Of a DNA stretch of 64,000 bases, positions 43,835-50,829 are shown one piece after another. Both the position numbers and the translations under genes were made by a program. The stretch's first letter is position 1, and each line of letters starts with the position of its first letter. Origin of the DNA: Nocardiopsis sinuspersici. Lineage in GTDB: Bacteria; Actinomycetota; Actinomycetes; Streptosporangiales; Streptosporangiaceae. The stretch covers positions 110,231 through 174,230 of the forward strand of contig ML703345.1 of the NCBI GenBank assembly GCA_008638415.1. Direction: 5' to 3'. The notes under the pieces are model-generated. The model saw nothing but the letters and a program-made list of their open reading frames with translations, did not search any database and had not been told where the DNA came from.

Positions 43835-46243
<2,409 letters not shown>

Positions 46244-46300: not shown

Positions 46301-46351
46301 TGTAGGGTCCTGGGTGTCGGTACGCCTCGGCGACCCATGAGAGGGCGATCC

Positions 46352-47149
46352 ATGACGCGCTACACCCACGGCCAACACCCGTCGGTCACCAACTCCTACC
46401 GCTGGCGCAACGCGGACAACTCCGCCGCCTACGCGCTCGACGAGATGGTCCCCGGCCGCTCCCTGCTGGACGTGGGCTGCGGTCCGGGCAGCATCACCGC
46501 CGACCTCGCCCGGCGGGTGGCCCCCGGGACCGTCACCGCGGTGGACTCCTCGGCCGAGGCGGTGGACCTGGCCCGCGCCGCCGCCCGGGAGGCCGGAACC
46601 GACAACGTCGAGTTCCTGGTCGGAGACGTACACGACCTGGACCTGCCCTCGGACGCCTTCGACGTCGTCCACGCCCACCAGGTCCTACAGCACGTGGCCG
46701 ACCCGGTCCGCGCCCTGTCCGAGATGCGCCGGGTCGTCAGGCCCGGCGGGGTCGTGGCCGCCTGCGACAGCGACTACTCGGGCATGTACTGGTATCCGCG
46801 CCTGCCCGAGCTGGACGCGTGGATGGACCTCTACCAGCGGATCGCGCGCCGCAACGGCGGCGAACCCGACGCGGGACGGCGCATGCAGGCCTGGGCCCGC
46901 CAGGCGGGGTTCACCGACGTCACCTACGTGGCCGAGGTGTGGAGCCACTCCGAGCCCGACCGCCGCGCCTGGTGGGGCGGCATGTGGTCCAGGCGTGTCC
47001 TGGAGTCGGACATGGGCCGCCAGGCCGTCGAGGAGGGCCACGCCACCCGGCAGGAGTTGGAGCGCATCTCGGCGGGCTGGACGGCGTGGAGCCAGGACCC
47101 GGACGGGGTGTTCGTGATCCCGCGCGGCGCGGTCCTGTGCCGGGCCTGA
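46352..47149 (+). CDS. class I SAM-dependent methyltransferase (UbiE-like)
   Basis: A 265-aa methyltransferase. Motif I is [17 protein letters not shown], followed by [30 protein letters not shown] and [14 protein letters not shown]. The C-terminal half with [15 protein letters not shown] is typical of the actinomycete UbiE-like group. ATG 46352 has GAGAGG about 8 nt upstream; an earlier ATG at 46337 is less well placed. It may be a separate unit from the UvrA-like gene. Confidence 0.9.
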
Positions 47150-47507: not shown

Positions 47508-48521
47508 TCAGACGCGGGAGTCGCGGTTCTCGGCCGCGGCGAGGGCCGCTTCGGTGTCGGCGGCGGCCAGCAGGGCGTTGATGTGGGAGCCGGCCAGGGC
47601 TCCGGCCGCGGCCGAAGCGCCCACCTGGGCGGTCAGGTCGGTGGCGTTGCCGGCCACCCACACGCCCGGCACGTCGGTGGCGCCGGCCATGCCGGAGACG
47701 AAGCGGCGGCCCATGCCGTGGGGCAGGTCCTCCATCGCCAGCCCCAGGCCGTCCAGGCCCTCGGTGCGGGCCCGCATCGTGGTGGCGACGGCGAGGACGC
47801 GGCGGGACACGAGCCGCCCGTCGGCCAGGCGCACGCCTGCGACGCCGCCGTCGTCGGCCTTGACGACCTCGTCCACCGGGGTGTCGACGACGCGGATGTC
47901 GCGTGCGCCCAGACGTGTCCGGGTGTCCTCGTCCAACTCCGTGCCGCGGGTGAAGTAGACGAGGTCGTCGGTCAGCTGGCGGAACAGCAGCGCGTGGTGG
48001 ACCGATGCGGGGCCGACCGCGAGGACGCCGATGGGCTCGTCGCGTACCTCCCAGCCGTGGCAGTACGGGCAGTGCACCACACCGCGCCCCCAGTGCTCCG
48101 CCAGTCCGGGAACCTCCGGCAGCACGTCGCGCAGACCGGTCGCCACCAGCAGACGTCGGGCCGCCAGCGTACGGCCGTCGGCCAGGGTGGCGGTGAAGCG
48201 CGGGTCGCCCTCGGCGGACGGGGCGGCCGGGGCGGCGGAGACCACCTCTCCGGCGATGACCAGGCCGCCGTAGCGGCGTACCTCCTCCCGTCCCCTCTCC
48301 AGCAGTTCGGCGGGCGAGGTGCCGTCCAGGCCCAGGAGGCCGTGCACGGCCCGGGCGGGCGCGTTGCGGGGTGTGCCGCCGTCGATCACGATGACCGAGC
48401 GGCGCGAGCGGGCGAGCATCAGCGCGCCGTTCAGCCCCGCGGCGCCGCCGCCGACCACCACGGTGTCGACGGGCCCGTCCGGCAGTGTGTCGGCCGCGTA
48501 CGCGGCGGTCGTCTCAGGCAT
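47508..48521 (-). CDS. thioredoxin-reductase-like NAD(P)/FAD oxidoreductase
   Basis: A 337-aa class II pyridine-nucleotide-disulfide reductase. The FAD motif VVVGGGAAGLNGAL starts near residue 21, the redox-active pair is in HCPYCHGWE (Cys 151 and 154), and a second FAD segment is VWVAGNATDLTAQVG. The second dinucleotide-binding fold is degenerate (GVLAVGPASVHH), so NADPH use is uncertain. ATG 48521. It is divergent from the XRE-cupin regulator, and the shared region holds paired operator-like sites, so it is likely part of the same regulon as the downstream methyltransferase. Confidence 0.9.
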   Translation of the reverse strand: MPETTAAYAADTLPDGPVDTVVVGGGAAGLNGALMLARSRRSVIVIDGGTPRNAPARAVHGLLGLDGTSPAELLERGREEVRRYGGLVIAGEVVSAAPAAPSAEGDPRFTATLADGRTLAARRLLVATGLRDVLPEVPGLAEHWGRGVVHCPYCHGWEVRDEPIGVLAVGPASVHHALLFRQLTDDLVYFTRGTELDEDTRTRLGARDIRVVDTPVDEVVKADDGGVAGVRLADGRLVSRRVLAVATTMRARTEGLDGLGLAMEDLPHGMGRRFVSGMAGATDVPGVWVAGNATDLTAQVGASAAAGALAGSHINALLAAADTEAALAAAENRDSRV

Positions 48522-48591
48522 GTCGCGTGCCCTCTCCTTCGTGCGCGGCCCCGGACGATCCGGGGCGTCTGTGCACGACGCTAACCGCGCT

Positions 48592-48627
48592 TTGCACTAA
48601 GGGCATATACTCTTGCCTATGACGCAA
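48592..48627. promoter_or_regulatory. paired operator sites TTGC-N7-GCAW, 21 bp apart, with -10 box
   Basis: TTGCACTAAGGGCAT (48592-48606) and TTGCCTATGACGCAA (48613-48627) share TGC-N7-GCA and have centres exactly 21 bp apart (two helical turns). TATACT at 48606-48611 lies between them and ends 7 nt before the regulator ATG at 48619, which falls inside the second site. Binding should block the regulator's own promoter and could affect the divergent flavoprotein gene. Confidence 0.65.
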
Positions 48628-49212
48628 GAAGATCGCGAGTTGGACAGCCTGGTGCGCAAGCGCATCCGTGCCCTGCGCGTGGCGCAGGGCTGGTCCCTGG
48701 AGGAACTGGCCGCCCGGGCCCGGCTCAGCCAGTCCACGCTCAGCCGTATCGAGAACGGTCAGCGCCGTCTCGCCCTGGACAGCCTCGTCACCCTCGCCCG
48801 TGCCCTGGACACCACCCTGGACCAGCTCGTCGAGACCGCCTCCGACGAGGTCGTCACCAGCCCGATGATCGACAGCACCCACAGCCTGATGCGCTGGCCC
48901 ATCAAGGCGGATCCCGGTATGACCGTCGTGCGGCAGCGCATGACCGAACCACCCCCCGACAGTCCTGCGCGGATGCGCGCCCACCCCGGCCGGGAATGGC
49001 TGGTGGTCCTCTCCGGCACCGCGGTCCTCATGCTGGGCCACCGCCGTTTCCGCGTCGAGACCAACCAGGCCGCGGAGTTCCCGACGATGCTTCCGCACGC
49101 CATCGGGGCCGAGGGCGGCCCCTGCGAGATCCTGGGGATCTTCGACCGTGACGCACGCCGCGGCCACCAGCGGAGCGACGACGACCGCGACGCGCAGCGC
49201 TCCCGGCCGTGA
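48619..49212 (+). CDS. XRE-family regulator with C-terminal cupin domain
   Basis: A 197-aa regulator. Residues about 10-70 are an XRE HTH (IRALRVAQGWSLEELAARAR, then SQSTLSRIENGQRRL). A cupin barrel follows (about 105-180: HPGREWLVVLSGTAVLMLGH, then AAEFPTMLPHAIGAEGG), which usually senses a small molecule or metal. ATG 48619 is preceded by TATACT at 7 nt and no RBS, so the mRNA is probably leaderless. Operator pairs with the same half-sites lie at its own start and before the next gene. Confidence 0.92.
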   Translation: MTQEDRELDSLVRKRIRALRVAQGWSLEELAARARLSQSTLSRIENGQRRLALDSLVTLARALDTTLDQLVETASDEVVTSPMIDSTHSLMRWPIKADPGMTVVRQRMTEPPPDSPARMRAHPGREWLVVLSGTAVLMLGHRRFRVETNQAAEFPTMLPHAIGAEGGPCEILGIFDRDARRGHQRSDDDRDAQRSRP

Positions 49213-49303
49213 CCGCACACGGCCCCGGCCTTCGTCCGCCGTGGGACACACGGAACCCACCCGGCGTGTTCTTGCGCGTTCGGCAGCCCACACGGTCCTC
49301 GCC

Positions 49304-49339
49304 TTGCGGATGAGGCAAAAAACCATGCCGTAAGCGCAG
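49304..49339 (+). promoter_or_regulatory. second pair of TGC-N7-GCA sites, 21 bp apart
   Basis: TTGCGGATGAGGCAA (49304-49318) and ATGCCGTAAGCGCAG (49325-49339) repeat the half-sites and 21-bp phasing seen at 48592-48627; the first matches the 48613 site at 12 of 15 bases. They lie just upstream of TAACGT (49348-49353), which ends 7 nt before the methyltransferase ATG. This predicts control by the XRE-cupin protein. Confidence 0.6.
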
Positions 49340-49360
49340 GACCGTTCTAACGTGAGGCCC

Positions 49361-50224
49361 ATGACCCACGCACACCAGCACGCAGCCCGCCACGGCGCAC
49401 ATCACGACCACCAGCACGGTTCCGCCGCTCAGGCGGAGATCCTCGACCTGGACGCGCAGGTCCTCGCCGAGCACATCGCCGCCGTCACCGCATGGCTGCC
49501 CGTCAGGACGGCCCCCCACCAGATCGTGGACCTTGGATGCGGAACGGGCGCCGGCACCTTCGCCCTTCTCACCCGCTTTCCCGAGGCACACGTCACCGCC
49601 TTCGACTCCTCGGCCGAGCACCTCCACAGCCTGCGGGAGAAGGCCCGCGCGCAGGGGGTGGAGGGGCGTGTGCGCACCGTCCAGGCCGATCTCGACGCGG
49701 AACGGCCCGACCTTGGCACACCGGACCTCGTGTGGGCCTCGGCCTCGATGCACCACATGGCCGACCCCGACCGCACGATGCGCGAGGTCCACGACACGCT
49801 CGTGCCCGGCGGCCTGTTCGCCGTCGTCGAGCTGGCCGGGTCCCCCCGCTTCCTGCCGGAGGACGCCCCGCACGACCGGCCCGGCCTGGAGGAGCGCTGC
49901 CATGCCGCGAGCGACCGCTTCCACGCCGAGCACGTGCCCCACCGCGGCGCCGACTGGGGGCCGAGGCTGACCGCCGCCGGATTCACCGTCGAGGGGGAGC
50001 GCACCCTCACCGTGGACATCGAGGGCTCCCGCGACGAGGCGATCGGCCGCTACGCCCTCGCCAGCCTGCAGGGCGTCCGCGGTTCCGTCGCGGACGCGCT
50101 CTCGGCCGAGGACCTCGCCGCGCTGGACCGGCTGCTCGACACCGACGGCCCCCACAGCATCCTGGCCCGGGACGACCTCGTGGTGCGTACAGAGCGCACC
50201 GTCTGGGCCGCACGCCGCGACTGA
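49361..50224 (+). CDS. class I methyltransferase with His-rich N-terminus
   Basis: A 287-aa methyltransferase. The first 22 residues contain nine His (THAHQHAARHGAHHDHQHG), a likely metal-binding segment. The core has IVDLGCGTGAGTFALL, TAFDSSAEHLHSL, DLVWASASMHHMADP and LVPGGLFAVVEL. The substrate is unknown; a metal- or metalloid-linked role is only a guess. ATG 49361; another in-frame start at 49352 is too close to the -10 box. Probably regulated by the XRE-cupin protein upstream. Confidence 0.88.
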   Translation: MTHAHQHAARHGAHHDHQHGSAAQAEILDLDAQVLAEHIAAVTAWLPVRTAPHQIVDLGCGTGAGTFALLTRFPEAHVTAFDSSAEHLHSLREKARAQGVEGRVRTVQADLDAERPDLGTPDLVWASASMHHMADPDRTMREVHDTLVPGGLFAVVELAGSPRFLPEDAPHDRPGLEERCHAASDRFHAEHVPHRGADWGPRLTAAGFTVEGERTLTVDIEGSRDEAIGRYALASLQGVRGSVADALSAEDLAALDRLLDTDGPHSILARDDLVVRTERTVWAARRD

Positions 50225-50337: not shown

Positions 50338-50829
50338 TCAGTCGGTGTCGTAGACGGTGACCCCGACGCCCCGGCCGAGGAGTTCGGCCTCGACCAGGGG
50401 CTGGATGAGTTCCCATCTGCCTCCGGCCGGCCCGCAGCCGATGCGGGGCATGTGCACGGTGGCGCCCAGTTCGCGTGCGTGCCCGGCCAGGGCGCGCAGG
50501 CAGGCGGAGACCGCCTCGTAGCGGATGGGCGGGCCTCCGCTCCCCCGCCGGACACCGTGCTGGGCGACCATGTTCGCCACCCGTGTGCCGGTTCCGACCG
50601 GCACCAGGCGCACGGCGCCCAGCGCGAAGTCGTTGCGTGCGCGCTCGCGGTACCAGGCGCGGTAGTCGCGTTCGGGCTCGCTCCAGCTTCTGGAGAGAGC
50701 CAGTACGAAGCCCTTGCCCCAGCCGCCCCGGTCGTTGCACACGTGAGCGATGATCTTGGGCCCGAAGGCTTGGGGATCGGTGGCGTCGCCGCGAACGATC
50801 CGTAGTCCGGAAGGAGTGGGGAAGGACAT
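50338..50829 (-). CDS. macro-domain protein
   Basis: A 163-aa stand-alone macro domain, a fold that binds ADP-ribose or its derivatives and often removes ADP-ribose groups. IVRGDATDPQ, IIAHVCNDRGGWGKGFVLAL (the ADP-ribose loop) and HMPRIGCGPAGG are visible; the layout is closest to the OARD1/YmdB-like short forms. ATG 50829 has TAGCGT 6 nt upstream on this strand (leaderless geometry). No ADP-ribosyltransferase or DarT-like partner is adjacent. Confidence 0.9.
   Translation of the reverse strand: MSFPTPSGLRIVRGDATDPQAFGPKIIAHVCNDRGGWGKGFVLALSRSWSEPERDYRAWYRERARNDFALGAVRLVPVGTGTRVANMVAQHGVRRGSGGPPIRYEAVSACLRALAGHARELGATVHMPRIGCGPAGGRWELIQPLVEAELLGRGVGVTVYDTD

Follow-up and report, generated by a model that had tools for sequence, protein, structure and literature searches.

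The window, by which we mean the whole stretch of 64,000 nucleotides analysed from Nocardiopsis sinuspersici, harbours an XRE-cupin regulator gene flanked by a divergent flavoprotein gene and by a methyltransferase gene on its own strand, and the promoters of these genes carry a set of pseudo-palindromic sites:

47508..48521, minus strand: relative of the HlmI-type FAD dithiol oxidases with a CPYC motif, divergent from the regulator
48578..48583, minus strand: predicted -10 box of the oxidase, TAGCGT, 8 bp beyond the operator
48592..48605: site A, TTGCACTAAGGGCA, of the TGC-N7-GCA type, with column conservation taken over 81 sequences (window plus the best 80 loci)
48606..48611, plus strand: -10 box of the regulator, TATACT, 7 nt before the ATG
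48613..48627: site B, TTGCCTATGACGCAA, spanning the regulator start codon and codons 2-3
48619..49212, plus strand: XRE-cupin regulator (HTH_3 plus Cupin_2; Pfam PF01381 at 1.2e-16 and PF07883 at 8.3e-10)
48646..48659, minus strand: third site, antisense within regulator codons 10-14, TTGCGCACCAGGCT, its TTGC lying 32 bp from that of site B
49272..49285: TTGCGCGTTCGGCA, distal site ahead of the methyltransferase gene, 32 bp before the pair
49304..49317: TTGCGGATGAGGCA, middle site ahead of the methyltransferase gene
49326..49338: TGCCGTAAGCGCA, proximal site ahead of the methyltransferase gene, overlapping the expected -35 region
49348..49353, plus strand: predicted -10 box of the methyltransferase, TAACGT, 7 nt before the ATG
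49361..50224, plus strand: SAM-dependent methyltransferase with a His-rich N-terminus (Pfam Methyltransf_25 at 6.2e-20)

Sites A and B, and likewise the middle and proximal sites, share a phasing of 21 bp. Lone TGC-N7-GCA sites are common in the window (28 against 20.8 expected, with at least 28 in 6 of 100 shuffles), and single sites were therefore dropped as evidence, the signal sitting in the pairing at 21 bp. Pairs exactly 21 bp apart occur twice in the window against a shuffle mean of 0.008, and among 1000 dinucleotide shuffles 8 held at least one such pair and none held two, which bears out the claim of the preliminary description that four sites form two 21-bp-phased pairs. The exact 35-bp pattern TTGC-N7-GCA-N8-TGC-N7-GCA is present in two places in the 6.1-Mb genome, both at this locus. 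The same description had placed the first pair over the regulator's own -10 box and start codon and the second just ahead of the methyltransferase -10 box, and the coordinates agree on both counts, as the first pair covers TATACT (48606-48611) and the ATG at 48619, while the second ends 9 bp from the predicted TAACGT (49348-49353).

Conservation was followed in the best 80 of at least 403 confirmed regulator relatives, 81-95% identical and taken from named genomes of Streptomyces, Nocardia, Nonomuraea, Actinomadura, Microbispora and others; these loci are interrelated, so that the counts out of 81 given here (window plus the best 80 loci) do not represent independent events. The 35-bp pattern at the regulator start is exact in 74 of the 81, the other seven showing one to three mismatches, and a regulator -10 box of the form TAnnnT is in place in all 81; its position 7 nt before the ATG predicts a leaderless mRNA. 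Codon 3 of the regulator is CAA in 80 of 81 genes as compared to 43 of 646 other, later glutamines, and the pattern is therefore not explained by protein conservation. Further into the gene, TTGC recurs at exactly 32 bp in 79/81, with no other offset from 15 to 59 behaving in this way, and codons 12 and 14 read GTA in 61/81 and AAA in 67/81, against 4% and 6%, respectively, beyond codon 30. Codons 2, 3, 5, 12 and 14 represent the five strongest departures in usage among regulator codons 2-59. The regulator of the window itself has kept the TTGC of the third site, but with codons GTG and AAG instead of GTA and AAA.

The methyltransferase promoter was compared in 58 sequences. One is that of the window and 57 come from loci with a methyltransferase match; of the 58 such loci L080 was left out, as its match begins beyond residue 100. 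The distal site is exact in 50 of these 58 and keeps its TTGC in 55, so that the conservation in related loci on which the earlier proposal had been made to depend was found at both promoters. The middle and proximal sites together show no mismatch in 22, one in 13, two in 17 and more in 6 of the 58, the right half of the middle site being the least conserved part of the array. An array score of at most two weighted mismatches was reached by 49 of 58 real promoters, by none of 58 in-gene stretches and by none of 290 shuffled regions, in which the shuffling preserved base composition only. The matching third site at the oxidase and methyltransferase promoters means that both carry one and the same array, the site centres of which lie, by arithmetic, near -81, -49 and -28 from the predicted starts, within 1 bp at both enzyme promoters; calculated likewise from the predicted start of the regulator's own promoter, sites A and B are centred near -20 and +1. 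The paired sites at 21 bp that prompted the earlier dimer-of-dimers proposal are there, yet the array comprises three sites (32 + 21 bp) and not two. It is highly probable from these patterns that the three-site array, including the site hidden in the regulator gene, is a conserved functional element, for which an operator role is predicted. It is unusual for a predicted operator site to be preserved within a gene that pays for it in rare codons.

For scans of whole genomes, 72 of 139 operators were combined into a profile, R1, whose matches at those loci are consequently by construction. In the genome of origin it returned two places at E<1e-3, both at this locus, and in 43 genomes chosen for holding the regulator each of the 64 matches at E<=0.01 lies at a gene for the regulator, the oxidase, the methyltransferase, the pump or a DUF1684 protein, whether intact or decayed to a remnant. 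Broader tests were provided by scans of 246 and 392 genomes, run with stricter filters at which weak matches were lost, and some of the 392 genomes are also among the 80 loci. The 246 genomes are a sample from the phylum; R1 matches at E<=0.001 occur in 6 of them, the genome of origin included, and in each of the other five a regulator relative lies beside the match, three of these relatives being only 49-52% identical. The 392 genomes belong to one genus, taken to be Streptomyces because places coincide with named Streptomyces loci (e.g. G308/G005, the genome of L018), and here the operator (E<=0.001) was detected in 114, the regulator (E<=1e-40) in 127 and both in 113, so that the compact regulon is found in 114 of the 392 genomes sampled from this genus. 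The regulator thereby accompanies 113 of 114 operator-positive and 14 of 278 operator-negative genomes; an operator without it was seen in G550 alone, in front of another XRE-cupin gene (36%).

Targets located away from the regulator constitute the strongest test of the regulon. The 392 genomes contain 146 operator places, 137 within 2 kb of a regulator match and 9 away from one, and seven of these nine lie directly before His-rich methyltransferases that are 47-52% identical (the detached place in G407 was equated with L173, its contig and coordinates being equal to those of G285); the other two precede, in one case, an oxidase and a pump accompanied by a truncated regulator and, in the other, the G550 regulator. 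Further detached methyltransferase targets are present in G009 and G021, and further detached pump targets in G017, beside regulator remnants, and in G268, with approximately 40 bp resembling the regulator by eye, while in G015 an oxidase and a methyltransferase surround a broken regulator with the operator kept. TTGC at 32 bp was retained in 8 of 10 orphan methyltransferase promoters (at 31 in one, missing in L180) though no adjoining regulator gene demands it, these promoters not all representing independent events since the orphan methyltransferases of G407, G021, G568 and most of the rest look like one orthologous subfamily. Divergent regulator-methyltransferase pairs with one common operator exist at L144, L219 and L220, and it is therefore conceivable that the third site of the orphan methyltransferases could descend from a lost divergent regulator gene. 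The conserved loci and the trans targets together support the suggestion made from the window that the regulator, the divergent flavoprotein and the His-rich methyltransferase form one regulon, and in relatives the set extends beyond that trio to a DHA2 pump. That the sites are real and mark a regulon we regard as almost certain. No description of this regulon was found in the open-licence PMC literature; the main text of a 2025 survey of XRE motifs (PMC12565409) contains no TTGC/GCAA letters, and the motif may be given in its supplements.

Decayed modules were also encountered (L182, L179, L223 as judged by eye, L224 and L152), in which the regulator is truncated, broken or nearly gone and the operator persists beside a gene, intact or as a remnant, for an enzyme or pump. 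A further operator is present downstream of the methyltransferase in L026, L033 and L052, near 5616, and in L052, L057 and L061 a DUF1684-type gene follows, a possible fifth member of the regulon. A weak R1 match in the genome of origin (C17:16295, E 0.47) coincides with the start of an XRE-cupin paralogue (L113, L183) that is 38% identical, where a single perfect CTTGC-N7-GCAAG is probably the paralogue's own operator. The divergent frame beside this paralogue reads like a SAM methyltransferase by eye, and XRE-cupin/methyltransferase pairs with TTGC half-sites may therefore recur in the genome.

Assignment of the regulator to the XRE-cupin family is supported by PF01381 and PF07883, both above cut-off, by a structure model with a mean pLDDT of 82.4 and by the palindromic motif found, by sequence, at its own promoter. 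In a fold search the regulator matched 1y9q and metal-binding cupins, HppE among them, at a low whole-chain TM of ~0.4, which is generic. A cysteine sensor in the cupin was considered and rejected, as C169, though found in 96% of 84 rows, is missing from L144, L147 and L148 and is therefore no general sensor. The site at 48674-48686 inside the regulator gene is out of register with the array and was left as coding sequence.

The flavoprotein had been taken for a thioredoxin-reductase-like protein, an assignment that we revise: in a phmmer search against the PDB it is nearest instead to 4ntd (4.6e-73), which we take to be the dithiol oxidase HlmI, followed by DepH (4nte, 1.1e-41) and GliT (4ntc, 5.5e-30). 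Thioredoxin reductases carry an HRRxxxR stretch, and this was absent by eye from the oxidase and likewise from the aligned 4ntd chain. The CPYC cysteines are conserved in 100% (C151) and 97% (C154) of 31 rows, and in 64 of the 81 sequences (window plus the best 80 loci) an oxidase -10 box of the form TAnnnT follows the operator by 8 bases, none being found in 14. As regards the methyltransferase, all 58 rows contain 5-16 histidines in the first 45 residues and 52 of 58 promoters have TAnnnT 9 bases after the last GCA. None of the curated families with a match to this protein names its substrate, and the fold comparison does not single out thiol methyltransferases such as the dithiol S-methyltransferases GtmA and TmtA; in PMC12982422, N-methylation is the role given to a methyltransferase encoded in a thiolutin cluster. 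The DHA2 efflux pump of the relatives is encoded on the divergent strand, and the two pump proteins scanned with TIGR00711, of L041 (233.8) and L028 (231.2), score above the curated cut-off of 230.2; in the window, the ORF list contains no DHA2 pump adjoining the oxidase or the regulator. Elsewhere in the window, a small protein at 50338-50829 has a weak match to the DarG macro-domain antitoxin (E 4.7e-4, far below cut-off), and at 43835-46243 there is a UvrA-like ATP-binding protein (by eye), after which comes a second SAM methyltransferase (46337-47149).

Taken as a whole, we read the locus as an XRE-cupin repressor that controls a dithiol-toxin defence set through three-site arrays, with a probability of roughly 60%; the sites with their conservation, the third site and the regulon with its trans members are evident from the sequences, and the binding, sign, inducer and substrates are inferred. 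Dimers of the regulator would bind the TTGC-N7-GCA pseudo-palindromes on one face of the DNA, which follow each other at each enzyme promoter as distal site, 32 bp, middle site, 21 bp and proximal site. With no inducer present, the regulator would silence its own gene, with its predicted leaderless mRNA, and would in all likelihood occlude the -35 region of the enzyme genes. Release would follow when the cupin senses a small molecule; the signal is probably a dithiol or disulfide toxin, or what such a toxin does to metal. The HlmI-type oxidase would then re-oxidise the dithiol, the His-rich methyltransferase would cap it by S-methylation and, in relatives, the DHA2 pump would export it. That the regulon serves in defence against dithiol or disulfide toxins, the substrates and inducer being presumed from the gene content, has in our estimation slightly better than even odds.

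The 4ntd chain, searched against the same 392 genomes, has a single 98% match, in G568, the surroundings of which encode an NRPS with condensation, AMP-binding and carrier domains, together with a thioesterase, a small flavoprotein (PF02441) and an MFS pump. These hlm-like surroundings support the identity of 4ntd as HlmI and make it probable that G568 belongs to a producer of holomycin such as S. clavuligerus. Its hlmI gene is divergent from an XRE-cupin gene (L214) whose product is 38% identical to the window regulator, with one intervening TTGC-N7-GCAA site. In the same genome, one contig carries a regulator relative (86%) together with the pump, and a second contig has a His-rich methyltransferase (49-52%) directly preceded by a weaker operator (E 0.07 genome-wide, 0.0013 in fetched stretches). 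According to PMC3826145, S. clavuligerus without hlmI accumulates S-methylated intermediates, and the enzyme that bis-thiomethylates dithiol holomycin is described in 2023 (PMC10500201) as still awaiting discovery. The operator-bearing orphan methyltransferase of G568 offers a concrete, if tentative, candidate for this open question of holomycin S-methylation, although we consider it doubtful that it will prove to be the thiomethylase. It is similarly doubtful that every element of the widest interpretation holds at once, namely a widespread actinomycete dithiol/disulfide-toxin regulon that would be the bacterial counterpart of GliT/GtmA/GliA, with an XRE-cupin sensor acting through a three-site array, a codon-embedded third site and a methyltransferase that is the holomycin S-methylase. 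The genomes with the best HlmI matches show no enrichment of the operator (4/12 as compared to the genus rate of 114/392). Other HlmI-like oxidases (66-69%) lie beside XRE-cupin genes at L217 (8226-10761) and L221 (8444-10041), and HlmI-like oxidases lie beside methyltransferases 33-35% identical to that of the window at L217 and at L218 (7301-9572, where the oxidase is again 66-69%).

The oxidase gene was present in only 38 of the best 80 loci, in 8 of them as partial pieces, as compared to 57 with the pump and 58 with the methyltransferase, and dithiol oxidation may therefore not be core to the regulon. A broader handling of toxic molecules (drugs, electrophiles, metalloids) by efflux and methylation, with the oxidase as a dispensable extra, is possible, if on the unlikely side. 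It accords with the presence of the pump in the flanks of 13 of the 15 loci among the best 80 that have neither oxidase nor methyltransferase, with the multidrug exporters in the pump family and with a His-rich N-terminus that could serve a metal; however, those loci that do have the oxidase have one of HlmI type, and the hlm-like cluster again combines an XRE-cupin gene, HlmI and a pump.

As to the predicted sign of regulation, repression is favoured over activation by a fair margin of confidence. The distal site near -81 would be superfluous for simple occlusion and is equally compatible with activation, and a dual regulator, repressing itself and, when ligand-bound, switching on the oxidase/pump genes and the methyltransferase gene through the upstream array, is an explanation we deem a shade less probable than broad toxin handling. 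Such a regulator would account for an array that lies upstream at both enzyme promoters, equally spaced and with the distal site at its far end, for an expected -35 that by eye is poorly TTGACA-like and for a pair centred near -39 of the predicted start. Class II activators sit near -39. The proximal site, however, is located between -35 and -10, which is odd for an activator of this type, and the Pseudomonas XRE-cupins described in PMC7901475 are local inhibitors with palindromic motifs that mostly bind core promoters. The notion that the sites are conserved promoter or coding sequence instead of operators, for which the partial overlap of the array with -10 boxes and first codons might speak, is highly improbable given rare codons exactly at site positions and recurrence of the array before unlinked methyltransferases and pumps.

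The repressor that we favour resembles Pseudomonas PsdR, PauR and ErfA (PMC7901475) in its HTH and cupin domains, palindromic motifs and core-promoter sites, most of that group having one or two direct targets and suspected autoregulation. It differs from them in a three-site array (32 + 21 bp) that is repeated at each target, in one site placed in its own coding sequence and in its targets, which comprise an oxidase, a methyltransferase and a pump. The pair of L214 in G568 is like that of the window in having an XRE-cupin gene divergent from an oxidase gene with TTGC-N7-GCAA between them, and unlike it in the 38% identity of its regulator, its single site and its location inside an NRPS cluster. 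The oxidase of the window is related to the dithiol oxidases HlmI, GliT and DepH by sequence and by its CPYC motif, whereas it is 45% identical to the 98% HlmI match of G568, and a biosynthetic cluster was not noticed among the ORFs of 44-54 kb, in an inspection short of a dedicated search. Deletion of GliT, GtmA or GliA renders a fungus sensitive to gliotoxin, as reported in PMC10500201, and the oxidase, SAM methyltransferase and MFS pump of the regulon correspond to that fungal set as described there. The regulon is distinguished from GliT, GtmA and GliA by being bacterial, by its single XRE-cupin regulator and by the absence of the pump at the window locus, and, as compared to GtmA, the action of the methyltransferase on sulphur is here a prediction.
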